DNA of 64,000 nt from Styela clava. Taxonomy: Eukaryota > Chordata > Ascidiacea > Stolidobranchia > Styelidae. Positions within the stretch are counted from its first letter, which is position 1. Each line of letters opens with the position of its first letter. The position numbers and the translations under genes were made by a program. Under the pieces are notes generated by a model. That model searched no databases and was not told the origin of the DNA. It saw only the letters and a list, made by a program, of their open reading frames with translations. Location of the stretch: positions 23,613,395-23,677,394 of the forward strand of contig NC_135250.1 in the NCBI RefSeq assembly GCF_964204865.1, written 5' to 3'. Shown here piece after piece: positions 6,005 to 64,000 of this stretch.

Positions 6005-7020
6005 GATTATGCCTTATACCGGTACCAGTATACAGTCATATTTTTAGAAGCAAACTAGGATTTAATCTTGTATTGAGAACATTTACCGGTACCTCGGGCA
6101 CTAATAAAGCCTACTGGTATTTCTGTAGTTCGAGTTATATCTGCAACAAGCTGATGATTTTTCAATAGCCTATGACATTTGAACATTCAGAAAATCAGAA
6201 CATTCTGACATTACAGCATACCGTAATTTTGTAATTGGATTAATCAACTGGCGCGGCTGTGTCGTGTGGCTCAACGGGCTAAGCGTTAGGAATACCTGAA
6301 TACGCTCGCCACCGCACCTCTAATTACTCTGCGTGGGTTTGCAGGTTCGAATCCCATGCAGGGATGGTTATGTCTGTATGTGCGAGAGGATTGCTGGACT
6401 CCTCGCCGTCGTTGGGTGGTTCACGTAACCGCTGGTCGGTTACGGCTTTCTCCACCACCAAGTCCATGCTTCCGAAAACAAACAATACAGTAAGACTAAT
6501 CCCATACCCGACTTGGAATGGTAACCGGACGAGAGGCCGTGGTTGGCCATATGGATAAGCCGTCTTATCGGCTTTTCTCTCCCCCGGGATAAATATGTAA
6601 ATCCTATCCTATCCTAACTTCGTATACAGGTTCGGTACCGGTATAGTATACTTTTGTAAAACCAGATAATATGGTACCGGAATACAGTCTACAGATAATA
6701 AAGAAGTAATACGTCTGTACGAGCCGCAGTACTGGTAAAGGTCGTAAACTTATCACAGTACCTGTACTACCGGTACCGTCCCCTACCGTAATTACCGGTA
6801 CCGTACTTAGTCAATGCAGCAATGGTAGGTATCATAATTCAGTAATTTGAAATGGGAAAATGAATACCGGTACAGACCCCTCTCGTCATACTATTTAATT
6901 GTTTTACCCGCACGAAATTTCCTCACCTAACTGGAGAGTGGAAATCTTGTTAACTACAGGTATTACAGTACCGGTACCGGTACCGTCAGACCGTATTCTG
7001 GTACCGGTATTATAAGCCTG
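6005..7020. repeat. Cluster of TACCGGTA / GGTACC palindromes
   Basis: Within about 1 kb the words GGTACCGG, TACCGGTA and their overlaps occur many times at irregular spacing, for example near 6019, 6085, 6632, 6674, 6770, 6795, 6868, 6970 and 7005. The longest run is three GGTACC units in a row at about 6970-6987. The pattern is dispersed, not a clean tandem array, and it is interrupted by a SINE. CG-containing palindromes at this density stand out in the AT-rich surroundings. Confidence 0.6.
6250..6618 (+). mobile_element. tRNA-derived SINE, copy 1 (full length)
   Basis: The 5' part looks like a tRNA. An A-box-like TGGCTCAACGGGCTAAGC starts at 6267 and a perfect B-box GGTTCGAATCC lies at 6344-6354. 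A tRNA-unrelated body follows, rich in palindromic GC words, and the 3' end is a short (ATCCT)n repeat. A second near-identical copy at 29022-29372 defines the boundaries. The internal pol III promoter and simple-repeat tail mark it as a SINE and not a working tRNA gene. Confidence 0.88.
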
Positions 7021-40957: not shown

Positions 40958-43900
40958 TCACAATTCCTTTTTCGACAATATATCGACGTCTTTCAATTCG
41001 GCGTAGTTCATTTCATGATTTTGTTGTGTGCTCTTCTTATCGCTTACCTGATGAAGAAGACAATATTGAAATACACATTTAGAAAAACAAACAATCAACA
41101 ATATCAATCAATACAGGAAAGTTTTAAATGGAAGTGAAACATTAGATATTGTATATTATGTTAGTATAAGATTTTTTATGGCGTAAAATACCCCTGATGT
41201 TATAAGCGCCACAAAACATATAACAGCGAGAGAGAGAGAGAGAGAGATTTTATTATTTCGTCAACCAAAAAACGTGAAAAATAGTCATCAGTAAAATAGC
41301 ACTAGCAAAAAAATTTTTTTTTTGGTATGGACAGGAGGAAGCGATACGACCATACGGTCATCGAAGTCAGCTCCCACCATATATGCTGATTTTATTAAGA
41401 TAACACTGAAAAATGACCAGTGACAAAACTTAAACTGTTACATTAATATTTTTACAATAAAATTCTGAATAAAATTAGGAGACTCGTGGGTAAATGCATT
41501 GTTATGAGTATTTTTAAAAGAAAGAAAATAGAAGAAAACAAAAACAAAAACAAAACAACTTTTGCGCGATGTGTTATGCATTGTTTGCAGTCGTTTGCTA
41601 AAGAGATACTAAGAGCCATGCTTGGCTTACTCTTCTTATCCTGTTTATCAGAACAAGCAAAAGTACCAAAATACGAAAACGGTATTTTCTTACAAGAATT
41701 TACTCACAGCATGGTCACGCGCACTCACTCAGAAGTACAGTTACTCATCTCTGACCAAACTTACAGGCATTTACTGAAATGCCAAGATCTATTCTTTACC
41801 GCATTGTCAGTGGGGTCAAAAACAATACATACAGAAAAATGTACACTTTTATTTACATCAAAAAAGTCAAACCTTAAAACTAATCCTTGGACATTCTTTT
41901 ATATTTCGACAGACGAGTTTTTGCAATGTGGTAGATTTTGCCATTTCAAACATTTCTTTACCCCCAAAAGTCGATTCTCTCCAGAATTGCGGGGAGCCAA
42001 TGGTATTGGAAAATACACTGAAGTAAAGGATTTTAAAAATAAGAAAATCAGTATTTCTTTTTAATAAAAATAAAACTTTGTTCGTTGTTTGGTAACGGGG
42101 TGGGAATGAACGTTGCTTATTTTTTTACACAAATTCTTGACCACACAATATCATTTTGCTTAGCTAAATTGCATCAGTGTCGGTTTATTTCACGAGCCGA
42201 TGGTCGCTCATTGAGAAAAGTTCTATTACGGGCGCTCCAGAAGTATGTGTACCAATATGGTGGTAACTAGCTTTGTTCGCCTATTTTACATCAACCTGGT
42301 ACACATACTACGGGAGTACCCTATTACGATGATAATAACTGCCAGATTCTGCTTAATGTTATTGCAGTTAGATAGAATTTAGTGAAAAGAAAGTATGGAA
42401 ATGGAGGTATAAACTTCAAAAAAAAAATAAAAATTATCAAAAACGGCATCTGTAGCTACAAATGCCCATATGAACTGATGTAAGCGGGTTTACTTGCGAA
42501 AAGCATATTGTCCGATTATTTCAATGAGACCAATTCCTGCTATCGCTGTGGGATGCCTTTGTTCAACGATCATTCCGATAAGAAATTCAACGGCATCGAT
42601 ATCATTTGCATAGATTTCTTTTAATGTATTTGCTGTTTGGGCATCCCCTAAACAAAAACAAAAAACGATTATTGCATATCGTAATAATAAAACTATTTGT
42701 GGTTGTTGCAGAAACTAAAACTCGACGTGGTATCGATTTCCACATTAAATTAAAAGTTGCTTCGCTTCAAATTATAAAGTTGTTAATCGTCTTCGATGCG
42801 TCCCCCAAGGTTTTATAGCTCACTAGTGACTCTTAGTGGTTGATTTAATATTATACTTGTTTTTATACGGAAGCGACATACATGATTTCTTAGCTTATTG
42901 GCTAAAAGGAAATGCTTATCTTTTACTTATGTAATAGCCTGCTTACTACGTCAGAATTCAACAAGCATGTCCGACCAGAAAAAGTAAAACCCACATTGTC
43001 CAACAAGTTCTGATATGTTGCACTTAAGTTGCATGATTTATTTAGGTTCCATTACATTTGAACCCACGTACATTTGAACCCATGGCAATTTCACCTGCAT
43101 ACTATTTTTTTTTGTTTTTCGGATAGTTGAACCCATACTAACCCTAACCCACGGGTTTTAGCACCCGCATATAGATTGAACGCGCGGATATACACATGGG
43201 TCCAAATGTCCGTGGGTTCAAATGTACGGTCACCTTTATTTAGGTTAAATTCCTCGCGCTGAGGAATACCTCATAGATACCTCAATGAACTCTAACATGA
43301 TTTTTATCTAGTTTGTTTCGAGTAAAGACAAATATAAAATTTCGAATGCCTGTAAGCTCTTCAAATGTGTTGATCCGTGGTAATCTGAAATATTGTCTGT
43401 ATCTATTATATGATTGCAGTCGAACTTCGCGGTTTAATTCTAATGCTCTCGCGATGGCTTTAATCAGAAATGCAGGCACAATGTTCCCACCAGACGCCTA
43501 GAAATTCAAAACCTGTTACCTTGTTATATCAAAGCAAAATGTACAAGGTTAAAAATCCAGAAGAATAGAAGACGAAAACTTCAGTATAATGTCAAACCAC
43601 TTCAAACTTACTTGTCCCATCGGTTGATTAGATAGTGAAGTTGTGAATGTTGCCATTCCGACTTGAGTGAGAGATTTCGTGTTGTACATCATATCCGACA
43701 GAGTGTAATTTTTACCTAAATAAAATATTGCATTAGGAGGAGCCTCAGGTATAGGTAAACAGTTTGACAAAAAATCACCCAGCAGTTGTGTTGTTTGCTG
43801 AATTCACAGTATTGGATTGGTATAAGTTGCCATGTGGCACTATTTGAGGAAATAAAAAACTAATGGCTAATGTGTTTTAAGAAGAACGATATCCCGATAA

Positions 43901-46900
43901 GTCTACTTAATTCTGACAGTCCTATGTGAAGCTTGGATTTATCGACGGTGAGGCTCAAAATTTGTGCCCAATGCTCGCGCTGTAGAGCCAATATGCTAAC
44001 CAATGCATCAGATCTGCTCGTGAAATTGACACCAAACCTCATGTCAACCGATACTTCCTGTGTTATGCCAAGTATGCCAGTTTGTAGTTGTTATTGCAGA
44101 TTGTGTTAGACACATCGAAAACCACGGGGTCATATTTCACAAATGGTACTGACTAATATCAGAAACAGTTGTAAAAAAAGGTGATACAAATGTTGGCAAC
44201 AGTATGGCACTTCACTGTTGTATTCATAGTTGCGGTGTCGTGTTGTATGTTTTGATAACTGGTTACAGATAACGAAACGAATATGCATTACTGCACAGAA
44301 TGAGAATAAGTCCCGGATTTATTACGAAAATGCTACTGTTGTTTGCAAAACAAAGTGAAGTATTGAACTCTGTATTATATTACTGTGGTTTAGGCCTAGC
44401 ATCCAATACAATTTTCCCACCAATTTAAGAACATTTAATTTTATTAATCAAGCTTTAAATACATAAAACAATCGTTCTATGTTTAAGGATATTGTTTCAT
44501 AATGACCATTTTTTCAGTATAGGGTAGGATTTTTCAAATTTATGCCGGGAGATTGGAAAGCCGATAAGCCGGCTTAGTCATATGGCGAGTTACGGCCTCT
44601 CGTCCGGATACTAGTCCTTGTCGAGTACGAGAATAATGAGCCGATTAATTGTTTTAGATGCATGGACTTATATTACCTCCGATGTTGAATACATCTGGAA
44701 CAGTGCCGTGCCAATGGTACATACTGTTGAATTCGACATGAATTCGTCCGCTAGACCAAGCCATTGTTGAGCCATGGATCAGTTCTGGCTTGTAGTCTAA
44801 CTTCAAGTGAGTGGCCGATATCTGTTGTGCGTAGTCTCCGATAGTTACGACCATCGTTTGAGCTGAAATTGAATTTATATAAGAATTATATATATTCATT
44901 GTGTATGTAAAAAAGCAAAATATCGTCGATGTACATAATCGCACATTGCGCTATGTAGGATAGGACGTATAGTCGTCATATTATCTCGTATATAAATTTT
45001 ATTATATCTCTGGGAAGAATTTTTTTACTATAACACATAAACACTTCTTCAATCTAGATTCTAGAAGTATCCATTTGCCATGGTTCATAAGTATACAAGC
45101 TATAAGTCAGAGAGCTTTACTTTAGGAAATATTATTGGACTAATTTGGAGTAATGACAAAACTAAAATTTTGACAATTGACACTGAAAGTTTCGTAATAA
45201 ATAAAATCTGTTGTAAGAGTTGGGATCACTTAACGTTCAAATGAGAAGCGTCCACGCGAAGTGCTTCAGTGGTGGTAACTGATAATAATTCTCTTTATCT
45301 CAAAGGTTGCTTCAGTTATTACTACCCACACCACACCAAATCATTAAAAACTATTCGGCTTATAGCTTACCATGAATATTGTGCCTTGCTGTTTGAAAAA
45401 TTCTTTCATCGTCCCAGTTTGGATACTCCTGGGCTAGAATGTCGCATACTCTATTGTGCTCTCGCAACCATAACGTGTTGAAATATAATAGAGAAGGGAA
45501 CGAGCCAAAGAACGGATGCCCAAGTCCAAACTTGTGATCTTCGGTAATTTCGGCTGGATACCACATGTTCAATCCAGGGCAATCTTTTAACTTTGGCGGA
45601 TAAGTCTGTAAGATCGAAAAAAGTAATGTACAAGAAATGATTTTTATCACGTCGATAGCAATACCATATTGCAACCATTAAAAAGACAGATGTTTAAAAC
45701 GATTTTCTACCAGACACATATGATATACTACTAACTGAATTGTAAAAATTGATTACAAAATTTTGATATGAATAGAAAAGGGGAGGGATTAACCTCGACC
45801 TTTGGGCGGACAAAAAAAAAACAAGATGGCGGCGATTCGGAATTTCCGTCTGAACCGATTCGAATAATTTACTATTCGGTTCGATATGCCCAGCTTTATA
45901 TAATGTAACGAATTGCAGTTTGTCATATAGATATTACGCTACAATTGAACTCAAAATTATATTAGGTTGATGTCATACGATTTGCTCTAAGCAAGGTTCA
46001 AACACCTCAACAAGGGGTCCAGAAGTGTGTGCACCAATATGGAGGAAACGAATTTTGTTCACCTACTTTGCATCATGTTGTGCAAAGGGACTGGAACCCA
46101 TGACCAGGGAGTTGGTTATTCACTTGACTAACACAGACAGTCCCCGAACTCGTAATATAAATAGAATGAGGAAACTCTGAATAAAATAATGGCCTAACCG
46201 TAACCTGGTACACACACTACGGGATTACCCACAAAAGTATACTAATAAAAAAACGCACTATGGAATTCATATTGTGTAGATTTTTTTTCATAAAATTACC
46301 TCTCCATTAATTTTTTGCATTTTCATTTTACCGCCTTCCAAAGTTCTCAACAATAATTGTTTTTCCTTTGTTTCACCGTACAAATGAGATAAATCCATCT
46401 GAAAATTCAGAAAGAAATCATACATAGACATTTTTAGTGCAATTTATAAGTAGTTCGTCCGTACATTCTCTATATATATTACCTCGTGACTTCCCCACGT
46501 CAATTTGGGATCGTCTTGATATGATTTGAACGATTGATGAGTAAAATGTTGTGCGTAAAGAGGAAGGAGTACAGAGGTTCCCATCGGACAAGGTTTGAAT
46601 TTTGTTCTGGTGAAAATTTTCTGTAAAGTCTCCATTACTCCTGGGAGAAATTTAGGACCTATAATGTAGAATTTTGTTAAAACTTGCAATATGCTAAGCA
46701 AAGCAAAGGGTGCATAGCAAAAATTGAGATTTATTTAGAGAACGCCTACCGTGTTTCCCCAAAAATAAGACAGTCTTACTTCAATTTTCTTTCTAAAAAT
46801 TACTTCAGGTAATTGAATTGAAATCATTTTAAACGAGTAGGAGAGATCTCTTGCTATCGAATACGTAAAAAAGAAATTCGTCTTATTTTCGGGGAAACAC

Positions 46901-49900
46901 GTAAGTGTTTAACAGTCCTGCTTTAAATACGAGTGTATAACCAGATCTAATGACCTGTTATTCAACATAGTTAGAGAAAGCACTAGGCCAGGGTGCAGAA
47001 CGCACATGAAGATACGTCCAATATTTTTAAAAGATCTTATCGCGTACCATGCCACGTTCGAATAATTGTGGGTTGTGTAAACGAACCGTAAAACACATAA
47101 TACCTGATAACATGGGCACGAGCTATAGAAATGTGTAAATAAACATAGTGATTCCAGTATAAACCTGAGTTATTACGATGTATTATAATTACAATAACTA
47201 CTTTTTACCAAACGTCTGGTGTTCGAATTTATGACGTGTTACATTGAGCACGCCGCCCTGTTTTGTGCATCCCTATATTAGGCCATATAAAATTAGTAAC
47301 AATTAGTACAAACAATTAGTAAATAAATATTTCCCAGGGTCGAGGGTGTGCCTACCTGCGACTCCCATAGGTGTTGGACAATCTTTCGAAACTGGTGGCA
47401 GAGTTCTTCCATAAAATGTCTTGTTTGCATATCCTTCATATGTGGGAAAATCTGCGCCTAAACTAGTCGATTCAGGCCAGGGTGGTTGGTCGCTTTTTAC
47501 TGTAACAAGTTATGGCATTGAGAGAGAAAATGGGTTATCTCACATTTATATTCAAAGTATATAAATAACATACATATGATTATAATTTTAAGAAGAAAAT
47601 CGTGTAAGAATTCTACTTTGTTAATCAAATCCCAGAATAATTTCCCGTGTGTTGTTAGCCATCTCACAAGAGCAGGTGAAGGTTTGATGGTGTCTCCAAT
47701 CCAAGTGCTGATGTAGGCTAAAAATAAAACATATTGTAAAGTTTTACAATCTACAATACAAACTAATTATGATATATAAAAAATAACAAAGCGATGCTCG
47801 AATATATGGACACGAAACCCAAAACGAAGTCGTACGGTTATGCAATCCGTCACAGTAGACTACCGCCACAAAGTTCAATTTTGAAGACGTCATGGCACAC
47901 AATAAAAACAAATCTTATAGAGCCCACAGAATTTTTTAAAATAAATATGCGATTAACAAAACAATCCATATGTACATTTCGTGTTCACTGAAAGCTTTGT
48001 CCAAATATGTTGCAGATTTCATTTTTGCAAAAATTGCGTTTTTTTTCGATTACCTTAAACTTTCGACCGGCTAAAAACGGCATTCATTGATTCGCCCCAA
48101 ATTTCATTCGATTTTAAAAAAGACGAAATGACAAGAATTTTACACATGATTGATTTGGATAATCAACAAACAACGTCTATTTTGTTTCCATCAAACCAGG
48201 TGATGATTGATGCCAGCTATAGAAGTTCTGGAGACAGTGATGCTTTAGTTTTATTTAGAAACTGTGTTTATGCAGACAAAGTAAACGAATTATCTACATC
48301 TACCATTCTGTAATTTTTGAAGTTCACTCTATGACTTCCCAGATGGACACTTATTTTTTTTCGAAATTACCGATAGATGGCAACGTAGTATTTCCAATAA
48401 ATCGTTATTTCGAGCACCCGTTGTAAGGCTAATTAGCAAACGAATCGGCGAGACCTTCTTGCGTTATTACCACGAACCACATGCCAAACGATATTTGCTG
48501 TGTTTTATTCAAGTACCCCATTTTTAGTTGTTTTTGCAAGTTGTGTTCAAGTGAATACACATTCAAGAAGACGGGATCATATTTCACAAAAAGTACTGGA
48601 TAACATAAGATATCGTTGCAAAAAATAAGGATTTAGATGTGGGATATTGTATGGTACTCAGTGGTGTATATGCTTGAAATGGCTCCCATGGCAAAGTTAA
48701 AAAGTGCGCTCTCTTTATTATTTGATTGACGATTTATAATGAATATTGACTGTTATTGAAATGAGATAGTCTACTTGTACGTTATTATTTGAATAAAAAT
48801 TCAAGTTCCAGTTATTTCCAATCTGGATTTATTTTATTGAAGCACTTTACGGTTAAAACATTTGCCGTTTTTGCGCACCTGTCCAAACGGCGCCCATGGC
48901 ATGAGCCAAGACTGCCACACCATAGATACGGCATTGATGGTACTTCATTGTTTATGGTTTTGACATTTGGAGTAGGTATATATTTGGTTACAGCTAATTA
49001 ACAAAACGAATATGCATTACCTCGCAGAATGAATAGATGGAAAGAAATTTCCCGCAAGCTTATTTTGAAAACTGTACATTTATTCCCAGACAAAGTATTT
49101 TTATTGTATTTATTTATTTTATAATTATATATACTTCTCAGTGTTGTCTTATTTCTTTCAAAATAACCAATTTTGATTAAAAAAAAAACGGAAAATCTAC
49201 ATTGAATCGTATTAACGTTAACTCACGAGTTTGACAATTGTCTCCATAATATCCCGTTCTATAACAATCACAGTGGTATTGGTCAGTGAATCCAATCCTA
49301 TTGCAAATCCCGAAATTTTGACAAGGAAAGGAGCAACATGGATCGTCTAATTCAAAATATAAAACATACAGGGTCACAGTATAAATATAGTACGGGTGTG
49401 CAATTTGTCACAGTAGACTGCTGGTACCAGCCGTCACGGTGTCATAAAAGCGTGTGAGACAGTAATCACGATGTCATAAAAACGTGTTTCTATAATTAAA
49501 AATTATCTGCACAATTTAGATAAAATATCAGAACTCACAGAAATATTCGGATCAAATAAAAGTAATACCTTTTTATCAATAAATACAATCTTTAACCACT
49601 GAAAATTTCGAATCAATTGGTCGAGTAATTAATTAATTAAAGAGAAAGGCGTTTTTTTTTCATAATGATGGTATGAAAATATCTAACAACAAGAACGATC
49701 CATAGGGCCATTTCGTTTCCAATAAAGGCGGTTTGGCCACTCCTTTGTTGAGGAGGAAGCGAGGACACCTGGTAGCCTACTGGTAAATCTTCATTATCTG
49801 TATACTTTGTTGAGTTTGGGTAATACGTGATTGACATCAAGGCCCTCTATTCGCGACAATACACGTGCAAGGCGTGAAATTTTATAGTTTACTGATTTTA

Positions 49901-50069
49901 CACCGGTTGTGGATTGTGTTGCTCATAATATATATATTTTTGAAAGTACTGTATATTTCGATGTACGGTACAGAAATATTATTACATAAAAACACTACTT
50001 ACATTTTTCAGCAAAAGTTGACCTCACTAGCAGCAAAATAAGAATATACAATTTCATAGTAGAATGCAT
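40958..50069 (-). CDS. PTGS: Cyclooxygenase / prostaglandin G/H synthase, copy 3 (13 exons, 603 aa), lacks the aspirin serine
   Basis: The most diverged of the three. Exons: 50069-50003, 49346-49227, 47717-47574, 47499-47356, 46658-46483, 46398-46300, 45605-45371, 44862-44677, 43715-43612, 43497-43350, 42647-42494, 42017-41873, 41047-40958. Phases agree and exon sizes equal those of copy 1 except the single first exon and the last. Two in-frame ATGs, 50069 and 50057; the shorter start gives 599 aa. Numbered from 50057: Lys108 at the Arg120 position, distal His195, Thr342 at the Tyr355 position, Tyr373 and His376 in EFNSMYHWH, and Ala519 (codon GCT) where copies 1 and 2 have Ser (TCT). C-terminus KKEL. 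Intron 10 starts with GC (ACAG|GCATTC); the donor at 41872 is GTTTGA. Haem ligands and radical Tyr argue for an active enzyme, altered in the channel. Confidence 0.94.
41227..41247. repeat. (GA)n microsatellite
   Basis: About ten GA units, in the last intron of COX copy 3. Confidence 0.85.
42231..42320. mobile_element. Short family M MITE with perfect 8-bp target duplication
   Basis: GGCGCTCCAGAAGTATGTGTACC...GGTACACATACTACGGGAGTACC, flanked by CTATTACG on both sides (42223-42230 and 42321-42328). The interior is shorter and differs from the palindromic form. It lies in the intron after exon 11 of COX copy 3. Confidence 0.92.
43045..43234 (-). mobile_element. Foldback MITE, family F, copy B
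   Basis: Reverse-complement copy of 37635-37821, running from GGTTCCATTACATTTGAACCCA to GGGTTCAAATGTACGGTCACC. It lies in the intron after exon 10 of COX copy 3. Confidence 0.8.
43955..44370. repeat. Diverged dispersed repeat, partner of 48410-49110
   Basis: Shared words with 48410-49110 in the same order and orientation: GGGGTCATATTTCACAAA (GGGATCATATTTCACAAA), GGTACT, CAGTATGGCACTTCA and ACGAATATGCATTAC. Both copies lie in introns of COX copy 3. Class not recognised. Confidence 0.55.
44523..44640 (-). mobile_element. 5'-truncated SINE, antisense orientation to copies 1 and 2
   Basis: On the minus strand this matches the 3' part of the SINE at 6250-6618: GACGAGAGGCCGT, CATATGRCTAAGCCGGCTTATCGGCTTT, a CTCCCGG-like word and a final ATCCTACCCTA tail. 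The tRNA-like head is missing, as expected for a 5'-truncated retroposon. It lies about 37 bases downstream of the donor of COX copy 3 exon 8. Confidence 0.8.
46016..46220. mobile_element. Family M long-form MITE in intron 6 of COX copy 3
   Basis: GGTCCAGAAGTGTGTGCACCAATATGG ... CCTGGTACACACACTACGGGATTACC, with interior CACTTGACTAACACAGACAGTCCCCGA shared in reverse with 23291-23496. The flanking duplication is not clear. Confidence 0.75.
46750..46901. mobile_element. 150-bp MITE with 21-bp inverted ends, intron 4 of COX copy 3
   Basis: CGTGTTTCCCCAAAAATAAGAC at the left and GTCTTATTTTCGGGGAAACACG at the right are near-perfect inverted repeats. TA dinucleotides flank both sides. There is no coding capacity. 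As I recall it, ends of this type occur in repeats of many invertebrates. Confidence 0.85.
48410..49110. repeat. Diverged dispersed repeat, partner of 43955-44370
   Basis: Direct-orientation partner of 43955-44370, also in an intron of COX copy 3 (between exons 2 and 3). Shared words include GGGATCATATTTCACAAA, TGGTACTCAGTGGTGTA, TTTGGTTACAG and ACGAATATGCATTAC. Confidence 0.55.
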
Positions 50070-50104
50070 TGACTTGATTACGCTAAAACGATCATTGTTG
50101 ACTA

Positions 50105-50120
50105 CATATAATATATATAG
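50105..50120 (-). promoter_or_regulatory. Possible TATA box of COX copy 3
   Basis: CTATATATATTATATG on the minus strand lies 36 to 50 bases before the first in-frame ATG of COX copy 3. This resembles the arrangement at copy 1. If used, the leader would be very short and might favour the second ATG at 50057. Confidence 0.4.
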
Positions 50121-53100
50121 AGTGTTATATCGTTATGAATTAGCAGAAAACGATCGAGTATGACGATAATGTGGCGAAAATGGGGGTTTATACATTTCAG
50201 GGATTTCTCAAGTACATGAAACTTTGATATGTTAAACCAATAATATCTAAATAAAACTGATCGCGGACCTGATTTGAAAGGTTACAATAAAGGTCAATTG
50301 TAGCAATATTAAATATCTGTCTTCTCGTTAATCTGTGCTGATTTTAACCTTTAACTTTGACTTTGAAATACTTTAGCTTATCCTGTCTGTTAGATACCAA
50401 ATACCATATCGTAGTCGTGATTATTTTCAATCATATGTCGTGCTATTTTATGAATCAATTTAAAATACGAAGTTGTAGGATTGCTTATTCTTGACTTAAC
50501 TTGGCAAGCGTTTATAGGAAACTATAAACTATTTGTTATAAACTGCTACCATACTCTATTCTATACTAAAAAGCGCATATGTTTCAAAGTCAACAACTCG
50601 ACATTAAATGCCTATTTCAAATTGATCGTTGGCAGTTATGTGAAAGAATTATCGTTTTCGACAGACATAATAACCTAACCTAAAATTGATTCAAGTCTGT
50701 GAAAGTAGATGAGTACTTCTGATAAAGAGAGTTAGAATCGATTATGGTGTTGAGACCGATATTTGGTTGATACTTGGCAACTATTGAAAATCCTGCTTGA
50801 GTAGTTTTAATCAAATGTGAGTATTATTATCACAGTATTATTAACTGCAGGACAAAACCAACACCGTACCCGGCGGCTTGCTTTTAAATTTGAATAGCAA
50901 TTTGACTCAATCTCAATTACACCCACGAAAGAATTTTTCTAATGTTAGGCAATTCAGGAATTCAGGATTCTTATTAAAACGTTCCCTCTAATAGGTAACC
51001 GCTATTTAATAACAAATAAATAAATACATCATTGCTCAAGGCGTAAAATTTGAACAACAAATAAAATATTATATATTGGTCAGTTTGTAACAAACTTTAT
51101 AATATGTTCCCATGTCAGAAACTTCACTCTTTTTTTTAACCAAAAGTACTTCTAAACAAATAGTATTTATATTTTTAAACTGATTAGTTAGGTACCTCAG
51201 ACAATTTCAATGTCGCCTCTATAAATTAATATTTAGCTGACCAATGTTGTATGGAACATACTCCCCTTCATTTCAAAATTTATCCGGCTCGAAATGCGAC
51301 AAAATTATTCATATACGATAAAAAAGTTTTAAAACCAGACAGCAGTAATAATTTTCGTGCTAAGGTCATATACACATTAGTCGCTTCTTAAATGCGTAAC
51401 GCCCGATATCGATATTAGCTCACATTATTTTGTCTACTACGTTATAGCGGTTTCACTGTCTCGAACATCTGAAGATAACATCTATGTAATACGTCTTTAT
51501 GTAATGAAGAAATGCGCAACGTTTTGACAAAACAAAATATTAGGAATCGCTATTCTTAGCAATTAATATACCAAAATATCGATTTTACAGAATCTGAACT
51601 TTCTCGACAAGTATCAGACGACCGTTCTACGACGTGGCTCTGTGTAGCCCACATTCATAAAAATATGGGTAACAGCTGGATAATTCGATAAACAAGGTTG
51701 AAAGTTTACAACGTGGTCCAGTATATCATCCCAAACCTAAATTATACCTAAGAGAAATCTAAAATCATTTCGACTTTGCTAAATTATAGATATTTCGATT
51801 CTTTCAGATATGATAGATTTTACCTGCCTCTATACGAGTAAACGATACAGTAATTTAAAAAAAAAGAACTTTTCTTAGATATAAACTACATTCCTGTCGC
51901 TCTGCCGTGGTTATAGCTCGCGAAGGCGAAGCTTCAATTTCCTACAACTCATTATTACAATAGATTCATATTTTTAGTCTGCCGCCTCGACTGCATGGTG
52001 CGTAGTTAATTTATAGGCGGAAATGGTTCAGTTCAATTGATTAGACGTTTTAAATCATCGTACGTGACTCGAAGCTTCACGAAGAAGGACGCAGGAGAGC
52101 ATTGTGATATGGAACAAGAAAGCAATGCTCAAATATATAAATACGAAGGCTTAATGAGTACCACAAAGTCAACAAAATTCTAACCCGGAATTAAATTTTT
52201 TTTACCGATTGTCATATGAAAGTGTGCCCGTAAATTATATAAGAATAGCAAAATTTGAGGTAACATATCGGCTCCGTGGTAAGAAATTAAAAAATATATA
52301 TAAAAGCCATATCCTGTTAGCGAAAAAAAAAATCTTTAGCCACTGAAAATTTAAAAGCAATTGTTCCTAAAGTTAAGGAGAAAATTCTCTCATAACAACA
52401 TTAACGAGAACGAGAATGAAAAGGATTCTAGCAGCATAATAACAGAACGATCCATATGTACATTTCGTTTCTAATAAAGTAATACCCTTTTAGCGCCTTT
52501 TCTATCTCCGAGCACTGAAAATTGAAATTGATTAGTTCCTTAGAAAGAGAAAAGCGATTTCATAAACCCAACTACAAAAACAATAATTTAGCTGAATAAT
52601 CCAGAAATTCACTCTGTGTCCAACAATGAATTCTAACTCTCTTTTCGCTTTTAAATTGTCCTTAAATTAGAGCACTAATTCTACTACATTTTCTGCTACT
52701 TAGTAAAAGTTTCTCGAATAAAAGCACCACGGTGTTACATTGGAATATATATATTTCTAAAATGAGTGGTGAAAAATTTAGTTTTTTCTTACAAATACTG
52801 AAAGTTACTTTTTTCTCCCAGCACATCAAATTGAAACAAAATGTTTTCTATTCAGCTACAGATGACTTAATGAATGTGAGAGAATATATTATGCTCTACG
52901 TTAGATGCGTCTGTAAGTTATTACACGTCGAGTTTCATAGTGAAATCTTTACGACGCTACAAGACTTCAGCCAAATATGTGTGAGTAAACGCATTAGTAA
53001 GTAAACGCAATAAACGGACTAGCCTCTTTATTACAGTATAACGTACTGTATATATAGTTCATAACAATTGCAAATGAAAACTAAACATCTGCATTATTTT

Positions 53101-53446
53101 TACTGCAAGAGTAGACAACAATCGCGCATTGAATGAACGTGGGCCCGGTTTCGAATATATATATTTGATAACAAGTTGAAATCCGTATTATATTGTTTTT
53201 ACGTCTAGACTGTTACAATCAATAAATCATAATAGGTGAAAATGGATTGATCATACGAGTACCGTGAAGAAAATTTGACTGTGTAAAAAAGCAGTGAGTT
53301 TCTCTACAGTTTTACAGTAAAATTTAAATCTTTCAATACACCTGTACAATGTATGTATCATTCCAGGCATTTTTCGAAAAATACTCAAAATAAAATGAAT
53401 ATGAATGAGCAAAAATTGATACTGTACAATGTGCATTCATTCTACT

Positions 53447-53452
53447 TTTATT
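53447..53452 (-). other. Candidate poly(A) signal of the receptor phosphatase
   Basis: AATAAA on the minus strand about 240 bases after the tentative stop at 53691. Use is not proven. Confidence 0.35.
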
Positions 53453-53690
53453 CAAAAATCTAAAAATAAAAAAAAGTCATTAGAAAATCATCTTAGGCAG
53501 TTTATGCAAGCATTCTAACTACTACGTGTGCAAAGAGCCATCAAATTTTCGAATATGTACAAATATGTGAAAGCCTAAAGTAAAACGGCAATGTTCCGAA
53601 AGTAAAATTTTCATCCATCATATAACACCTGAAATCTGTTTTACACAAATTGGGACCCTGACACGAATGCAGACTTTGAAAATTTTGGCG

Positions 53691-56600
53691 CTAATCAAAA
53701 CATTGTGGTTTCTTCTCCGTCACCTAGAAAATATAAACCCAGTAGGTATCATATGAATTTTTTGTTATAAATAATATTATGAAGAAGTTTAAAATAGTAT
53801 TGAAAATAAATTATAGAACAGGTCGACATTAACTACATGTTTACGTTATGCAATTTTATGCAATACAAATAGCAAATCATTTTAACTCGGAATAAATGAG
53901 ATACATTCACACATAAACATTTATATGAAGCTCGATCATTGTATAGTATATCTGTGACCTATTTCTGCCTTTGAAACCTATGTGTGGTCTATTTGTGACC
54001 TATTTTCTGCCTTTAAGATGTGGCAGTTATGACCCTATACGACGTATGATTTCGTATTATAGTCTCAAAAGCACGGATACTGCATAATGGGCTCACCAGT
54101 GGGAGATCTCACAGAAGACTTTTCCGAAGATACGCTTGTCAAAACGTACGCCAGACAACGATGCAGAAATGAATATTCAGCCTGTTGTAAAAAATATTCA
54201 TTTTTTGAATAAAGTACAAAATAGCGTAACATCGTACGAATTTTGACATTTGCCTGTGTGAAAATTGTCGTGTGACATATTCAAAAACTTGAATTTATTT
54301 AGGAATATGAAAAATATAATGTAGATCAGTTGCGGTTCCCTAATTTCAATCGGTTCAACACCCCATGTGAAAAAGTCACAGCATGAGACAATAAACCTGC
54401 AACTTACAGCCGTTTGAATCATATATGGACGATAATTTCTGAGATCAGCTACAACTCCACACGGATCGATGTTGATTTCTTTGTCAATAGTGTCCATTAT
54501 GATGTCCAATGCAATAAATACCGCTGTGCGCCCCGATCCAGTACTAGATAAATAGGAAATTTTATTTGATATATTACGCAGTTATAACACAAGAAAAGCT
54601 CCTGTTGTAGTAATCGATGTTCTCCCCATGTATCGGAATTGTTTATTTTCATAACAATTACCGATCACGGATAAATTAACTGCGATGTAACAATTGTTAT
54701 ATGTGCAGCCTCTCAGATACTAATTTCACACTAACAGGTTTCAACGTCAGATAAAAACAAATTAGACATTACCATTTAGCCATGGGCTAGTTACCAATTA
54801 TATATAATACATTGGTGACGTGAGCTTATTTTGTTTACATATATAACGAAGTTCTAAAAATGTAACTTATCAAACCAAAACCAAGTTGAAAAGTCTGATT
54901 CAACTTATGTTAAGGTACTCCTGAAGTATGCGCACCAAGATGTCGCACAACCTGAACCCTAACATGGTACACAACCTGAGTTCATATTTTAAATCATCGA
55001 TAATTCAAAAGCAATAGTTACCTGCACATGACGACTGTAGGGCTATCACCCACTGGCTTCCCCATACGAAACGTTTGCAGAAACCTCACGAGCGGTTGGG
55101 GATTGTCTGGCACTCCTCTTACTGGCCACATTGTGAAGTGATATTGGGTCAATTGTCGTCTTTTTTCTCTCTGACAAGAATTGAGAATTAAATAAAGTTA
55201 AAGTAACTAATAAGTTTCACATCTGGAGGCTCGTAAGTGAAGGAAACTTAACATGGCGCTTCGCTAGGATTTTGACAATACGGCTCGTTTTCGGTAATCA
55301 ACAGTGCGTAAGAATTCATTATTGCACACGAAGTGTACATATGTATCGTTTTTCCAAATTTTAAATTTTAGTACCTAAATATGGCTGGAGTCGCTATAAG
55401 GTTATTAGTTTTATATTTTTTGCCAATTCTTACAACCCGTTCCGAATTAAAGCCACAGCTACAGGATATCCATATCTATATAGGTATAAATATTATGTAT
55501 CCAATACCTTTGAAATTGTAAAGTTTCTGATCGTCCATTCGGGTTGTCTTTCTTCATGCAACGACTGTACAGACAAGTTGCCATAATATGTTGTCTGCGA
55601 AGTATTCGGCCAGTACTTTGTACAATGATCCTGTAACGAATTATTTCAAATAAAAATTCGAAAGTATTATCTTAATTTGAATATAAATAAAAATAACATA
55701 ATCTCTTTCCACGAAGTATACTGGACACTATCTCAGTCACGCATCCTTGTGGCAACAGCCACATACGGATCCGGAATAAAAAGTAAACAAGGAGGAAGGA
55801 CCTGCAGTTCAATACACAATACCCCTAGTACACCCCTTAATTTGAATAGGTTACAAATTTTACGTTTCCTTCGAGGTCCACATTTCCAAGCATTATTATT
55901 CTTTTTGCTCCTGTTTCCCAGATCATTCTCCACAAATCATTCTTGGTATGTCCGAGTGGGGACTGAGTAGCAATGTATTGTTCCGGTGTACTTGAACCCT
56001 ATAATTAGGTATTTTGAAAATATAGGTAAAAACCGAATGTATAGAAAAGTCCAATTAAAAGATCCGTTGTATCTATAAGGGCGTTCGTCAGACGCACAAG
56101 CATGCAATCAGGCTGTTTACAAACAGAGCACCTCAATTTATGTCTCTTCTTCATAACCACATCGGCTACGCACAATGAAATTATTGCTTACGGCTTTTGC
56201 CTTGATTTTTGTATGTACTTTAAATTGCAAATTTTACCAATTGGTACACTTTCACTACGTAGCAATAGCAAATTGAACGTAGGCTTATGCTAGTGTTACA
56301 AGAGCATATTGATATATATTTGTCAACAACAACACAACACAGTTGCTTTTAAGTTCATACTCACGGGAATATAACTTGCGTTGATGTATCCAGAACTTTC
56401 TGTCGATCCCAGATTTTCAATTTTCACTCTGTAATGATCGTCTGAAAAGAATATAGAATGTTTCAATTGAACGATTCTTATTTAGGCTAATTTCTGGAAG
56501 AAATGAGCAAAAATGATAACGTATTAGTTACGTATAACGTATTAATTTATACAGTTATTGGAAATACCTCAACGTATATTCAGAGATTTATTACAAGAAC

Positions 56601-59600
56601 ACGAGACAGAGTTACCAATAGTAAAATATAAGATTTTTTCGAAACTTCTTCGAACACAATTTGCTATGTTTAAAGGCCCTGCTCGAAACACTCACTATGT
56701 TCGATTTAATTATTTTCAACACTAACTTGGATTAACGTTACGAATAAAACTCGTCATTAACCACTATAATTCCTTATAGTCTCGATAGCTCTTGGCCCTT
56801 TATTGATCGTCGGTAACATTACTCATCCTATTTTGCGTCTGAGTGACTGCGTATGCTCTTTGTGAGCGATTTGAGCACGTTTTCGTTGGAAAAATATGTT
56901 TCTGTTTCGACTAGAGAAATTGCATTGGAACTTCTACTTACATGGTATAATCTCAGCAAATCTATTCTTCGATTTGTTACACGCCTGACTGCCAATGGTT
57001 TTTGGTCCAAACGGTGTGACCGATTCAATTTCTTCAAATTCTGAGGCAAATCCTTTATCATTGTGAGCAGACATTCTTGTCACGTGATTGGGAAAGTGTG
57101 CTTTCGACACTGGCCTGTTGAAACGTAAATAGGGATTTTTTTCTGTCTCACTCTCTTTATATATATAAATATATACTTGATCGCGAAAAGTTCGAAGGTT
57201 GTATTAAAAAGATATAACTGACAAGGTAAATATTATTTCCAATATATAAAAATATAATTCACGATCACTCACATTACTTCTTATATTGTACTGACAATTT
57301 TATATTTCTGTTTTCATTTAGTTATTCATTCTAGACTCAGGAAATATTCACGTAGAATAAAAAAAAAATACCATGAAATAATCATTTTTGATATCGTTAT
57401 CTGGGGCCTTTCTGGGCACTTTTTTTAAAATAATCCAAGAATAATTTTGTACACCTCAAAATTACACGAATTGACCAATCCAAACAGTTGCTTCAAACAA
57501 AAACATAAATTCAATGATATGCACATTTTATATATTGACGTACAATCTATTACGAACCGTGTTATTGACTTCTTTCCTTTGACATTGGTCGGTTCCATCA
57601 CAAAGGACATATTGTGAGGAGAAGCAGGTAAAGATGAAGTTGCTCGTTTATTTAATGATCCTGATGATCGATCACTTCTTTGAGATTCGTTCAGACTTTG
57701 CTGGGTCAATCTTTTCCTGGCAATCAGAGAAGGATATGATTGGATTCAAAAAAATTAAAACATGTACGGGGTTCTTGCAATATCTCGTTTGACATTTTCT
57801 TATTCACAATATAGGCTACCTAATTCTTCACATTTTTGGAAAGTGATTTTTAATGAAAACTACAAAATATGGCAAAGTGGAAGTTCATATTTAGCTAGAC
57901 CGACATGTAGGCCTTTCAACCAGGGGCAGGACCAGCACACTGAAGAACTGTGGACCGGTTCAAAACTGAATTTTTTGAAGGGTGGCGTTCTGAAGATCTT
58001 TAGCACTGAAATCAGCGTCGAATAACGTTACAAAATTGTTTCCAAGCATTTAACATAAAATTATACAACGATTATATATGTACATTGCAATATAATTACA
58101 CTTAATGCCTGAACTCATATGAACACATATCAATCTATGTGCTTTAGGAGAAGAATTTCTACATACCTTATCACACAAACCAGTATGATTACAAATATAA
58201 CAAAAACTACTATTCCAACGACAAGTCCAACAATCAGATACATATTTGCTTCCAGAAATGATGAACGAGTACGAACGGGATCGGAAAACTCTGTTTCTGT
58301 ATATTCTCCATTTGTGGTCGTGCCTCTTAGTTTGAGTCTAAAATGAATAATTAATGTTACAAAGGTAGGAAGTTTCTCATTTTATTTAATACGCGAATTT
58401 ATGAATCATGAAGTTATTAAGTTGAGTTTAAGACCTGACCTTAAGATTTACTTTGAGTTAACGTAGCAATCGCAAATGCTACCTTATTCGTGGCCACAGA
58501 AAACAGCTCCGCGGCTAACTGGAGGCTGAGGACCAGTTTCACAAACGCCGGTCTAAGCCGTTTATATTTCGTGTAAAATATAACATCAAATTCACTATAT
58601 ACCTGTACGGTGTGTTGGATTTCAGTGGACCGTTACAATACGGTTTCTTCGTTGTTTCACAAGTTTGATCATTACCTAACACAAATTTTGGAGCCTCGGC
58701 TATCGAACGTCGTTTTCTGGTTGACTTCGAGATTTGACCATCTGCATATGAACAAAAAACACACTTTTTTCAGACGTAATTTGATTTGATAATACTACCC
58801 AGAGCACTGTAGTTGGAGTGGAAGTTTGACATGTTGTTATTGAAGCCGGAGCCGCATGTTTGAACTTCTCAGGATCGGGAGTCAAAATTATCAATGCCGT
58901 CTAGTCAAAATTTCAGACTGTGAGTAATGATAAACAAGTCAAAATTTTCCACAGACACCCCAAAGCAACAAGTTTTCTAAGCGTTCCTAGGGAAGGGTTG
59001 CATGCGCCAAAGCTTTGTCATAAAAATTTGATTTTGAATCTGGAGCCAAAGTCAAAATTCATATTTGTTTTCAACTTGGAGTTGTGTAGTTGTCACACTT
59101 ACCAGGACTACAAAACTCAACAGGATTGCTGGTGGCTCTAACCATATAGGGAGGAGACGGTTTCATATAGTAAGCTTCAAACCAATGTGTTGGATCTTTG
59201 TCTATTTTGTCTGAATAAGACATTTAAAGGATTAAGCACAAACACACACTTTTGAAAAGTACAAAAACAAGTTATTGATGTTCTTTGATATATTTTGCAA
59301 ATAATTTCGATAATTTTTTTTCTAGATATATGACCATTTTAAAAAGTTTGCAATGTAATGCAATTTTACTTACATTTTCAATATTTATCTGAAATCATAA
59401 TGCAATATGGGAATGCATTCATTATTAACAATCCAGTATGCTAGTGTCCAATTTCACAAACATATAACACAAAAACTAAGAACATAACACACTTTCATTC
59501 AGCCTACCTTCATCTTCGGCAACAATTACAGTGATGTTTTCTAAAGGTCCATTTTCATCCGAAAACACTCCACAAATATCAACAAGTAGCTTTGACGAAG

Positions 59601-62600
59601 CGGCTTTATTTTCCTCCCCAAATGACGTAATCACTAGAGTAACGTTGGGAACCGGTGGTGCTATAAAGTAAATCACAACTCATTGTTAAATTATTTTAGT
59701 GTTCAAAAAAACACATTTTACCAATATAAGAACTTACAATTTACGGGTAGAAGAATCGGGCTTGACCAGACAGACCATGGTCCAGTTCCTTCTTGAGTCG
59801 CAGAATTCATTCGGAAATAATAATTCCGGCCACCGAGAAGACCAGTCACAATCATCCAGTGTGGAGATGTGTTAGTAACTGGTTCTCCCGTATAAGGGAG
59901 ATCCGCATCAAGAATGTGAATTGTCATGTTATGATTAGCCTGTTTGAATTCAAACAAAAAATGTAAAGACATTATAGGAAATTGTGTAATTACATGTCGG
60001 TACATACTTTTTCACTTTTGTATTGCAGATTGTATTCGTAAATTGCTCCGTTTGGATCTCCGGGCGGCAGAAATTCAACGAGTACTGTTGATGTGTTACC
60101 GTCAGTGGTATTCACTCGCAACAAGACAGGGGGATCAGAAGGTGCTAGAATTCAATAATAATTATTAATTTTATGCAACAAATTCATTTAGAGGATATTC
60201 ACAAATGGAAGAAAGATTATGGGAAGTAATTTTTCGTTTAATGGTGACAAATGTCTGAAAAGGGCTCATTTCGCATTCGTGTTTGTTTTACAGTACGGCA
60301 TAGTGGCCGTATGACGCTAAAATACTTTAACTACTTGCTATGTGTACACATAAGAGTATGGGATGGCATTCCCTTCATACACCGAGTTGAACGTCAAGTC
60401 GAGCCACGGATTACTCTAGTTTTGATTCCGATGTCGATTCAATTACTCAGATGAGTTTCGTTGACGATGAGCTGAGTCATTTCATTCAGATGACTTTGAG
60501 TCTAGCTAGAGTTAATGATTCGAGTTTCCCCAACACTTACCGTCTTCGTCCGTTCTAATCATTGTGTTGCCTGAGCTCAGTTTCCCAGCAGATGTAATTG
60601 CAGATACAGACACAGCATATCTGGTATCTTTGTCCAAATCAGCGACTGTGACCTCTGAAATTTCCGACGGATATTCGTCGCTTTCTTTTATCTATGCGAT
60701 ACAATTGGAAAATATGAAATTTGTTTTTGTTAGGTATACAAAAGGAGGTATATTATGAATTTGGTTTCTTCTGTCTGCTTTTAGTAGTTTTTTAAAACTG
60801 TAATTTTCATAATTAGGTACACGAGTTTTGCTGTCACATTCTCTATCTTTGACATAGGGCTAGAATGACATAGTATATTAGCCCATCTCTTATCCAGTTC
60901 CTGAGATTTTAGGTACTTTTAAAAAATGTTCGATTATGCAAATATCTTACAGTTTTTTCTCCAAGTTTCACAACAATTTGGTAAGTAGTTGGTCCAGCCA
61001 GCACCAGTGGTTCTGTCCACGTTACATTTATTGCAGTCGAAGAAATTGCATGACCTTTGACATTACGAGGTGGGTATGATGGTGCTGAAAACAATGTTAC
61101 TAAACTTTTATTTTTGGCTAAAATAAATAAGTTCATAAAAAATGAATGATGGAAAATAATAGTTTATTGAGAATGTTTAAGCAATGAGAACTTGGTGAAC
61201 GATGATGACTTTTATATCCACCAGCTGCATGAGAAACAAGTTCATCCAAAACATCTTATTCTATATTCAGTTTTTCTCTATTATATCGAATCTCAATATT
61301 AATATTAGTAATTAAAGTTTTTTATATCACTAATGAATACTATACTATATCATTTCTCAAACAAAAATACCTGTTGATGAAATTTGTGATATACTAGTGT
61401 ACTTTTTAAATTTATATACCGTAGTTATACTATGAATAATGAAAAAGAAAAGAATAGAAAAGGCAACGTATTATGGTACTACGTTTCTGTATCTACGAGA
61501 CAAAACTATTATTGTTTATTCACAAATACATTACTACAACAAAAAATGTACTTTACTTACTTCCCGTTATGATAATGAATTTTAAAGCAAACATCTTTGG
61601 AGATTTCACAACTAACTTCAAAATAGAATTAAAGGGTATTTCACAATTCAAAAATTCCATTTTTTTATGTTACCTCCCACTAATGTTTTAAAAGTGCGTT
61701 TAAGACCAACTTTGCCCAGACCGGCACCAGTGACAGCTGCCACGCTGACAGTATATATAGAGTAATTTTCCAGGTAGAATATTGTTTTTGTTGTTTCTGC
61801 CGACTTCAGTTTGCACACCTTAATAGAAATATAATAGAATACCTTTTGTGTATTATTGCTGTTACTTCTTCGTTCTATGTAATCCCACAAACTTTGCTGA
61901 AGTAACTTAAGACGTCGACTATATTCTGTACAATTTCCGAGATAAATTTTAGGGTTTGGTATGTTTTTCAAGCAGATATTTATAAACTGAGAATGTACAG
62001 TTGACAAAAATGAAACGCATACAAATGGACAGATCGCCGTATATCCGAACGAAAAATCCAAAAGAATAATTGGTCAAAAATCCAATGTATGATATGCAAA
62101 TCCTAATAAGCATACTGGACCTCATATATTTATAAACTGGTATGCTACATTCATTGAAACTTTAGTAAAAATTCTGTTGAAAATTGAACCTCTTTCATAC
62201 CTCTCTGTCAGACACTGTTACCACCGATCCCAAGTTTTTCCAACAGTAATGCGGCGGTCGGTATAAAACAGCATAATGCAAAAGTTGACCATTGAACTGA
62301 TCCGGTTCCATCCAGTTCACTGATAGTGATGTGCTTGTTTTATTTGTAGTATGAATTGCTTTGGGTGGATCCGCAACTGAAATTTTAAATATGTTCAATG
62401 ATTCTGTAGTAGTAGTAAAATCAACATGAACACATTGAAATAAAAACTAAAAAAGATTTTATATCACAACTAGTTTTGTCTTACATCCTTCGCCAGTTCT
62501 AACACGACATGACGCTGGTTCCCCAATTCCTGGCTTCGTTTCAGCTTGTAATTCAAATATGTAATACGAAAAAGGAAGCAATCCCGTTGCAATGTACGAA

Positions 62601-63691
62601 TCTTCATCTCCATTTGTAACGTTATTTATTTTATCTGATGGTTTTGCTTCCAGATAATATTTTATTTTGTAAGAAATTATATTTCCATTCGGATTATTCG
62701 GAGGTTGCCAAGTCAAGATGATGTTGTTTTGATTCAAGGGATTACATTCGAGTATTGGTGCAGCGGGCACTGGAATAAAAAAGAACAATAAAACAATTGA
62801 TCTGAGATAAGTTAAAGTCCCATAATATTAAACAATTTATAAATTGCCACCACCTTTCAACCTTAATATATATACATATATATATGCAAGAAATTTGGTT
62901 TGTTGAAGACTGCGATTAGACCGATATTGTATAAAACAAGGATACTAATTACATTGTACAAATGTGTCAAATAGACTCTTTAGTTGATATCAAAAAGCCT
63001 TATAAGTCGTGAAATCGTTGTTGAAAATGACTCCACTGTATATTAAATAATACTAACCGTCCTCAAGAGTTGTGAAAAATTCCGGAAGACTGTGAATTGG
63101 GCCAACTCCAGCCGAGTTAGTGCTGAAAATAATTAGCTTATACGTCGTGAAAGCTCGCAAATTTTCAAGTGTATAGTGGGTTTCGGGTGTTGGCAAAATA
63201 ACAAATTTTTCCGTTTCATGATCTACTTTATTGTCGTCTGCAATTTCGTAATACACTATTTTGTATGTTACTATTCGTCCATTTGGCTTTGCCGGAGGAT
63301 TCCAAGTTATACTTGCTTCATTTGACGTGATTGTGGCAATCTGAAAAAAAAGGAATATGAACACTCGAAAAATATTACACTCGAAAAAATTATTCAAGAT
63401 GATATTGTTTCAATAGTTCGATAGTAAATGCGACCAAATCACAATATAATGATATATATATATTGAATTAACAGTGTTTTTTTTATTATATAATACGAGT
63501 CAAAATTTAGAATTCTACTTCAACATTGGTCGCAAAATCTTCTGGTAGTCCTTCTGATGTTGTAAATTGAACTGATTCCTTTGGGCCTGTTCCGACTTTA
63601 GTCTTAGGAGCTACAAATGCAACGTATGATGTGTGCGGTAGCAAATTTTTAACAGTGAATTCATATCTCGAAGTTGGTTCTGGTGTCTCAG
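53691..63691 (-). CDS. Receptor-type tyrosine phosphatase with FN3 repeats and a degenerate catalytic domain (5' partial)
   Basis: Exons: 63691-63519, 63340-63058, 62769-62485, 62376-62201, 61818-61674, 61084-60951, 60691-60541, 60144-60008, 59939-59738, 59660-59508, 59210-59103, 58741-58603, 58337-58167, 57716-57558, 57114-56942, 56441-56365, 55998-55864, 55630-55508, 55170-55022, 54543-54408 and, tentatively, 53723-53691. All phases agree; about 1079 aa in the window. Five to six fibronectin III domains are followed by a membrane-proximal domain with a furin-type RKRR site, the CNGPL...YRLKLRG motif, one transmembrane helix (MYLIVGLVVGIVVFVIFVII), a Ser-rich juxtamembrane segment and one phosphatase domain. 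Motifs: KNRF, INASYI, YIATQSPL, WRMIWE, KYWP. The WPD loop reads WPV and the signature reads MCSTGSGRT instead of HCSAGxGRT. The nearest type is R3 (PTPRB/PTPRJ-like), to which a single domain points. The 5' end lies beyond the window. Confidence 0.92.
54914..54980. mobile_element. Family M MITE, truncated, in an intron of the receptor phosphatase
   Basis: GGTACTCCTGAAGTATGCGCACC then AAGATGTCGCACAACCTGAACC; the right half is missing. Confidence 0.7.
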
Positions 63692-64000
63692 CTGCAATAA
63701 AAACAATCAAATTAATGATCAAAGCGTTTGAAATTTGCTAAACTTTGGCAATCATCAATTTGTTTTAAAAGGGTAGCAAAGTAATTTATCTACGTTTCAA
63801 GTTCAGAGTTGCTGGACCTCGCTTTAATTGTTAGAAGAAACATCCGCGAATAAGTATGCTCAAAAACTACAAAATATATAAAAAAAAAACTAAACCTGAC
63901 AAAAATGTGAATACTTTTGAAAATTATCAACTAATAATTAATCACAACCAAAGATAACTCTCTCCCACAACTCAATTTGCACTCGTACGTTTCTGTTACC
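63692..64000. other. Intron of the receptor phosphatase gene
   Basis: No exon is clearly present. The last 40 bases, read on the minus strand, could begin an exon, but there is too little sequence to decide. Confidence 0.4.

Follow-up and report, generated by a model that had tools for sequence, protein, structure and literature searches.

A Styela clava receptor gene of the R3 type with a predicted pseudophosphatase domain

Can a receptor phosphatase whose only PTP domain has lost both the general acid of the WPD loop and the histidine of the signature motif still be an enzyme, or would it act by binding? The question is raised by a gene in a stretch of 64,000 nucleotides of the Styela clava genome (C1:23613395-23677394; assembly of 376.6 Mb in 379 contigs), referred to here as the window. 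An initial annotation, made from the letters of the window, had described these two losses and called the gene a likely pseudophosphatase. Human receptor PTPs without any active PTP domain are few, namely PTPRU, PTPRN and PTPRN2 (PMC7320164).

Gene structure and reading frame

The gene lies on the minus strand, starts beyond position 64000 and ends at a stop codon at 53695 (Table 1). From 5' to 3' it comprises many FN3 exons, a long juxtamembrane module, a membrane helix, a juxtamembrane stretch, a single PTP domain and a short tail. Further FN3-like ORFs of the gene were found upstream, beyond window position 64000; the ectodomain consists of FN3 repeats as far as it was read, and its N-terminal end is located outside the DNA read. 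Upstream of 60144, exons were identified by eye and the joins of the hand-spliced ectodomain are approximate. From 60144 down to the stop codon, all introns checked are GT-AG and the frame is unbroken through the joined exons. Spliced translation that starts at the membrane-helix exon yields a single frame of 10 exons and 411 residues up to the stop codon, and the tail, TSVSSEKSSVRSPTGDGEETTMF, contains no tyrosine. The juxtamembrane module occupies 59660-58603 and part of the next exon, and the PTP domain spans 57114-54097. The exons had been described as intact with agreeing phases, and this was borne out: the 55022/54543 join is flanked by GT and AG and preserves the frame, and neither a stop nor a frameshift is found over the 10 exons.

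Table 1. Positions of the receptor gene features in the window and of the canonical R3-like domains on contig C10.
Feature	Position	Strand	Basis
FN3 exons of the ectodomain, running past the window edge	60144..64000	-	ORFs; Pfam fn3, 5 stretches; joins approximate
Last ordinary FN3, exon 1	60008..60144	-	GT-AG, in frame
Last ordinary FN3, exon 2	59738..59939	-	GT-AG, in frame
PTP_tm (long juxtamembrane FN3), exon 1, cysteine in DICGVF	59508..59660	-	splicing; PF18861
PTP_tm, exon 2, cysteine in EFCSP	59103..59210	-	splicing
PTP_tm, exon 3, furin-like RKRR and TCETTKKPYCNGPL signature	58603..58741	-	splicing; PF18861 19.8 bits in genome scan, below cut-off
Last part of juxtamembrane module, then transmembrane helix MYLIVGLVVGIVVFVIFVIILVCV	58167..58337	-	ORF, splicing
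Cytoplasmic juxtamembrane exon	57558..57716	-	splicing
PTP domain exon, phosphotyrosine loop KNRF	56942..57114	-	splicing
PTP domain exon, YINASYIP	56365..56441	-	splicing
PTP domain exon, QYIATQSPLGHTKNDLWRMIWE	55864..55998	-	splicing
PTP domain exon, HCTKYWP (first place K in active-type comparators)	55508..55630	-	splicing, column comparison
PTP domain exon, WPVRGVP and VVMC (acid Asp to Val, signature His to Met)	55022..55170	-	splicing, column comparison
PTP domain exon, STGSGRTA and start of Q loop	54408..54543	-	splicing, column comparison
PTP domain exon, AEYSFLHRCLAYVL and beginning of tail	54097..54181	-	splicing
Final coding exon, closing part of DGEETTMF with stop codon; no tyrosine in tail	53695..53723	-	splicing
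Canonical R3-like domains, two copies	C10:19086000-19090800 and C10:19144200-19148200		WPDHGVP and HCSAGVGRTG

Assignment to the R3 class

By its FN3 repeats, PTP_tm module, CNGPL signature and one PTP domain, the predicted product is an R3-type receptor phosphatase. Five stretches of the hand-spliced ectodomain match Pfam fn3; PF16656, PF25059 and PF16893 also pass their cut-offs on the ectodomain and were read as cross-matches of FN3 folds. The hand-spliced protein matches PTP_tm (PF18861), a module proximal to the membrane that was described from PTPRJ, with 32.9 bits at a cut-off of 26.3. The juxtamembrane module carries the C3XnC4NGPL signature (TCETTKKPYCNGPL), two more cysteines and a furin-like RKRR. 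According to PMC5242461, the C3XnC4NGPL signature is confined to R3 receptors and uroplakins. Two features of the class are present, the long juxtamembrane FN3 with C3XnC4NGPL (TCETTKKPYCNGPL; PF18861) and the single cytoplasmic PTP domain. The module shares its four cysteines and its internal introns with the descriptions in PMC5242461 and PMC5336234; it differs from them in its intron phases, 1,1,1,2 as determined by hand and with no intron directly before the membrane helix, where these papers give 1:1:2:1. NCBIfam, a library for prokaryotes, assigned no family to the protein.

Comparison of the PTP domain with known chains points in the same direction. Two-domain chains top the raw score table because the scores of their two domains are summed, and the ranking is therefore based on one-domain scores. 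The R3 chains score 247.3 (Ptp10D), 230.7 (PTPRB), 213 (PTPRQ), 211 (PTPRJ), 205 (PTPRO) and 199 bits (PTPRH), compared with 194.5 bits for PTPRZ (the best other single-domain chain), 189.5 for PTPRM and 185.9-191.7 for D1 of three PTPRS entries. The alignment with Ptp10D extends over 279 residues with 41% identity and zero gaps. In a tree of nine sequences, which includes neither Ciona nor PTPRQ, the window gene and Ptp10D were separated from the rest with a support of 72, and the same two together with the C10 genes with 66; this tree has long branches and its grouping is not relied on.

Catalytic motifs and active site

The two losses are evident at codon level. The WPD loop reads TGG CCA GTA AGA GGA, translating to W-P-V-R-G, so that valine (codon 55122-55120) stands in the place of the general acid Asp of active classical PTPs. 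The signature reads GTC GTC ATG TGC AG/T ACT GGA TCG GGG CGC ACA GCG, in which intron 55021-54544 splits the serine codon; it translates to V-V-M-C-S-T-G-S-G-R-T-A within the full motif VVMCSTGSGRTA. In place of the HC(X)5R of active classical PTPs we thus find MCSTGSGR, in which Cys (codon 55026-55024) and Arg are present and His is replaced by Met (codon 55029-55027); past this motif, in GRTA, a Gly is replaced by Ala, all as the initial annotation had read them. As dual-specificity phosphatases have Ala at this Gly position, the Gly-to-Ala replacement is the weakest of the changes. The ORFs that carry these motifs are not chance ORFs, since PF00102 covers positions 1-233 of 234 with 238.6 bits.

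Within the genome the combination stands apart. Across 51 sampled loci and the window, a partial sample of the PTP loci, 44 non-redundant WPD-loop exons were collected, none of them from the adjoining stretch into which the gene continues, with 29 reading WPD, two having the D but lacking W or W-P through truncation, eight reading W[KR]S, one WSL, two WPE, one WPN (in a gene on contig C3 that we take to be IA-2-like) and one WPV, that of the window gene. The signature is reached by 41 of the 44 exons; 40 read HC, and MC was found at the window gene alone among the sampled loci.

The domain was further compared column by column with six comparators of active type: Ptp10D, the two R3 genes on C10, PTPRS D1 and two single-exon PTPs from the same genome, the last two called active by motif alone. 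For the columns we assumed PTP1B numbering and its list of active-site positions. Six of the 26 active-site columns that are invariant in the comparators differ in the window domain; beyond the acid and the signature His, the changes are K120H, A217T, G223A and Q266E. Among the positions preserved are Cys, Arg, the two P-loop glycines and the first Gln of the Q loop. When each comparator was tested against the rest, 0, 0, 0, 1, 1 and 2 changes were counted (from 0/23 to 2/28 active-site columns). The inactive-type PTPRS D2 has 2 of 26 active-site columns changed and the IA-2-like gene 5 of 26. K120H and Q266E had not been listed by the initial annotation, whose pseudophosphatase call is well supported by sequence.

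The changes are not limited to the active site. Of the 48 invariant columns 13 are altered. These are 6 of the 26 active-site columns and 7 of the 22 others, which is no enrichment of changes in the active site (Fisher p 0.53). As changes spread beyond the active site, general relaxation accounts for them no less well than targeted retuning does; the domain as a whole is loosened, and its catalytic machinery is clearly part of this. In the P-loop, Thr replaces Ala and Ser occupies the next variable place, and both may weaken phosphate binding.

Sequencing error had been named as an alternative. To reach the nearest codon for the canonical residue takes a minimum of 2, 2, 3, 1, 1 and 1 base changes in the six altered codons, 10 together, which makes an error unlikely.

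Search for an intact domain or exon

A second catalytic domain or an alternative exon with intact motifs could restore activity to the receptor, and the initial annotation had named both as observations that would count against its reading. With tblastn over the whole window, using Ptp10D and PTPRS D2 as queries and E up to 10, no second PTP domain and no alternative exon with intact motifs was found; apart from the gene's own exons, matches had E values of 2.2 or worse. A six-frame word scan of 50000-58400 contains no WPD, and its sole HCx5R word is HCYSVPTR at 55975, which runs off-frame across exon 55998-55864 and is followed by a stop. Words interrupted by an intron, like the signature of this gene, could evade the word scan, but hardly tblastn. 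Among the matches listed by the genome scan with PF00102, just two are exons of the gene within the window. The membrane-proximal domain is thus the only one found in the window, as had been noted; this is no peculiarity of the gene, however, because one PTP domain is normal for R3 receptors.

Other PTP genes in the genome

The window gene is not the only R3 gene of the animal, a possibility that two canonical R3 domains on contig C10 refute. Genome-wide, PF18861 gives three matches: the window gene accounts for one, and C10:19098260-19100389 for the other two. All are below the cut-off exon by exon. PTP exons are located approximately 8 kb downstream of the C10 matches, with a second copy 58 kb away. 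The C10 domains read WPDHGVPETTETLVKFIRYVRR...GPTVVHC/SAGVGRTGTFIAMDRLLQ. Over five joined exons each, the copies show 93% mutual identity, 55% identity to Ptp10D and 46-47% to PTPRS D1; the window domain is 39-40% identical to them over the common region. Four of five introns compared by hand occupy the same place with the same phase in the window and C10 genes, including the one at the place of the 55022/54543 join, which both C10 genes carry, and the one near HCTKYWP/KCYQYWP is displaced. With two canonical R3 domains in the same genome, the window gene is a further R3 paralog, divergent and fast-evolving; additional R3 genes may exist in the genome.

A search of the genome with PF00102 gave at least 152 matches (150 of 319 candidates scored). 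PTP genes are clustered in a large expansion at C1:24.80-26.37 Mb, C2:6.4-11.45 Mb and C3:17.95-18.24 Mb. In those C1 tandem genes that were read, W[KR]S exons lie downstream of the WPD exons, the order seen in two-domain receptors. Membership of the window gene in this large tandem family is unsupported, as the C1 genes have WPDHGAP and this order of exons. With the window domain as query, 88 matches were listed (130 of 147 candidates scored), and the best of these outside the gene are three single-exon PTPs with 31-33% identity, followed by short exons of other genes, the best at C1:8483483 with 39%.

The presumed IA-2-like gene is a single-exon PTP at C3:11270831-11271571 that reads WPNDRVP and HCSDGVGRTG, with K120, D181, G183, A217 and Q262 changed. 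Its sequence makes it a second likely pseudophosphatase in the genome.

Comparison with known divergent receptors

Two types of R3 receptor are described in invertebrate deuterostomes, a PTPRB-like and a divergent one (PMC5336234). The divergent sequences read WPQ in Ciona, WSV in Ciona_2, WPI in the acorn worm, and WVD and WTD in two sea urchin sequences, and those of Ciona, Ciona_2 and the acorn worm are given no predicted tail phosphotyrosines (PMC5336234). The window gene resembles these last three in its R3 architecture, the non-acidic replacement in the WPD loop, the tail without tyrosine and the presence of canonical R3 sisters. The altered WPD and tyrosine-free tail of the PTPRQ-like divergent type were both found, and the sequence of the window gene fits this second type. 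In the window gene the signature His is lost as well; HCSAG is absent from the main text of PMC5336234. As far as that paper describes it, the kind is already known from Ciona and the acorn worm, and the loss of the signature His is what the window gene adds. Neither the window gene nor an R3 receptor with Met at the signature His was found in the open-licence part of PMC, with queries broader than that exact change.

With the active R3 receptors Ptp10D and PTPRB the window gene has the single PTP domain and the FN3 ectodomain in common, whereas Ptp10D has WPD, HCSAG and KCDQYWP and the window gene WPV, MCSTG and HCTKYWP. K120, D181 and A217 are also lost in the IA-2-like C3 gene, a likeness to the IA-2/PTPRN type, but that gene retains HC (HCSDG), has WPN and is not R3, in contrast to WPV and MC in the window gene.

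PTPRU offers a model for function, according to the description in PMC7320164. Its D1 is without activity, yet binds the substrates of active relatives; several of its loops are changed, and single and paired restorations did not rescue it. As in the window gene, a membrane-proximal receptor PTP domain has its WPD and P-loop altered and retains the catalytic Cys. PTPRU is, however, an R2B receptor with a second PTP domain, WPE, GSRQ and measured inactivity, while the window gene has WPV and KNRF. The D1 plus D2 arrangement of R2B receptors was not found in the window gene, which is single-domain with an R3 module. The rearranged PTPRU P-loop would interfere with pTyr binding (PMC7320164).

Predicted function of the altered domain

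We favor an R3-type receptor whose PTP domain is a pseudophosphatase, sequestering pTyr ligands or scaffolding, and give this reading a probability of about 0.72. PTPs that lack just the acid are slowed by orders of magnitude and become substrate-trapping mutants, and loss of the signature His upsets the nucleophile. With acid and His lost and Cys and Arg kept, the domain is probably unable to catalyze but may bind phosphate. The domain would fold and hold phosphate through its Cys-x5-Arg loop, while being unable to protonate the leaving tyrosine or to properly activate the nucleophile. It would then sequester phosphotyrosine ligands or scaffold partners, in competition with the canonical R3 phosphatases of the same genome. 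A binding or decoy role is probable by analogy with PTPRU, and from the same model, transferred to this genome, we infer competition with the C10 sisters. The proposal that the whole receptor may work by binding rather than catalysis is partly supported; R3-class catalysis as such is kept in the animal through the C10 domains. The window gene and the two canonical R3 domains form a matched set in which competition between an inactive receptor PTP and its active sisters can be studied. The gene also bears on the origin of R3 relatives without PTP, for which PMC5242461 describes tunicate sequences lacking the PTP domain and uroplakins.

That the Cys-x5-Arg loop alone provides a slow turnover relevant in the cell is doubtful: the domain retains Cys, Arg and the first Gln of the Q loop, and HD-PTP, with an altered Asp181, has been reported both as inactive and as active (PMC8269279), but several catalytic positions are gone together in the window domain. 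About equally improbable is a wider scenario, in which a PTPRQ-like R3 lineage lost catalysis first and kept the juxtamembrane module, the window gene being a living intermediate and a natural substrate trap. If true, the intermediate, its acid and signature His both gone beside intact R3 sisters, would link PTPRQ-like enzymes to the uroplakins and the tunicate receptors without PTP, and would serve its active sisters as a trap.

Less probable still is a lipid phosphatase like PTPRQ, in which the altered WPD would shift the substrate from phosphotyrosine to phosphoinositide instead of ending catalysis. Among R3 receptors the WPE of PTPRQ accompanies phosphoinositide activity, and the WPQ, WSV and WPI sequences of deuterostomes, without predicted tail phosphotyrosines, are placed near PTPRQ (PMC5336234); the window gene likewise has a tail without tyrosine. 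Val, however, cannot serve as an acid, the signature His and the E-loop Lys are gone too, and the window domain scores lower against PTPRQ (213 bits) than against Ptp10D (247) and PTPRB (231).

A young decaying gene, in which catalysis was recently lost and the whole gene drifts to a pseudogene, is comparably improbable: its branch is long (1.31 substitutions per site versus 0.40 for Ptp10D, with three other branches at 1.10-1.34) and 7 of 22 invariant columns outside the active site are altered too, but the juxtamembrane exons and the 10 exons that begin with the membrane helix are free of internal stops and frameshifts, the introns checked are GT-AG, and simulated neutral drift rarely leaves such a frame open. 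In this simulation the 903-base region of domain and tail acquired a mean of 4.7 stops and stayed open in 0.8% of 20,000 runs; the drift level was taken from the 26 active-site codons (78 bases), changes were assumed neutral with base preferences of our choice, and stops alone were counted, indels being ignored. The earlier statement that this is not simple decay agrees with the open frame in 10 exons and with this value.

Other features of the window

COX1 (PF00115) gave no match in the whole assembly, which therefore probably lacks a mitochondrial contig. In the window, ORFs at 6327-6608 and 29009-29365 (minus strand) have a 23-letter peptide in common and probably belong to a dispersed repeat. 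A single-exon ORF of 257 aa at 4930-5703 on the minus strand resembles what we take to be NECAP (adaptin-ear-binding coat protein). Three tandem copies of one gene, read by eye from ORFs, are located on the minus strand at 13174-17614, 23970-31802 and 41870-47766; they are presumably cyclooxygenase-like (prostaglandin G/H synthase).
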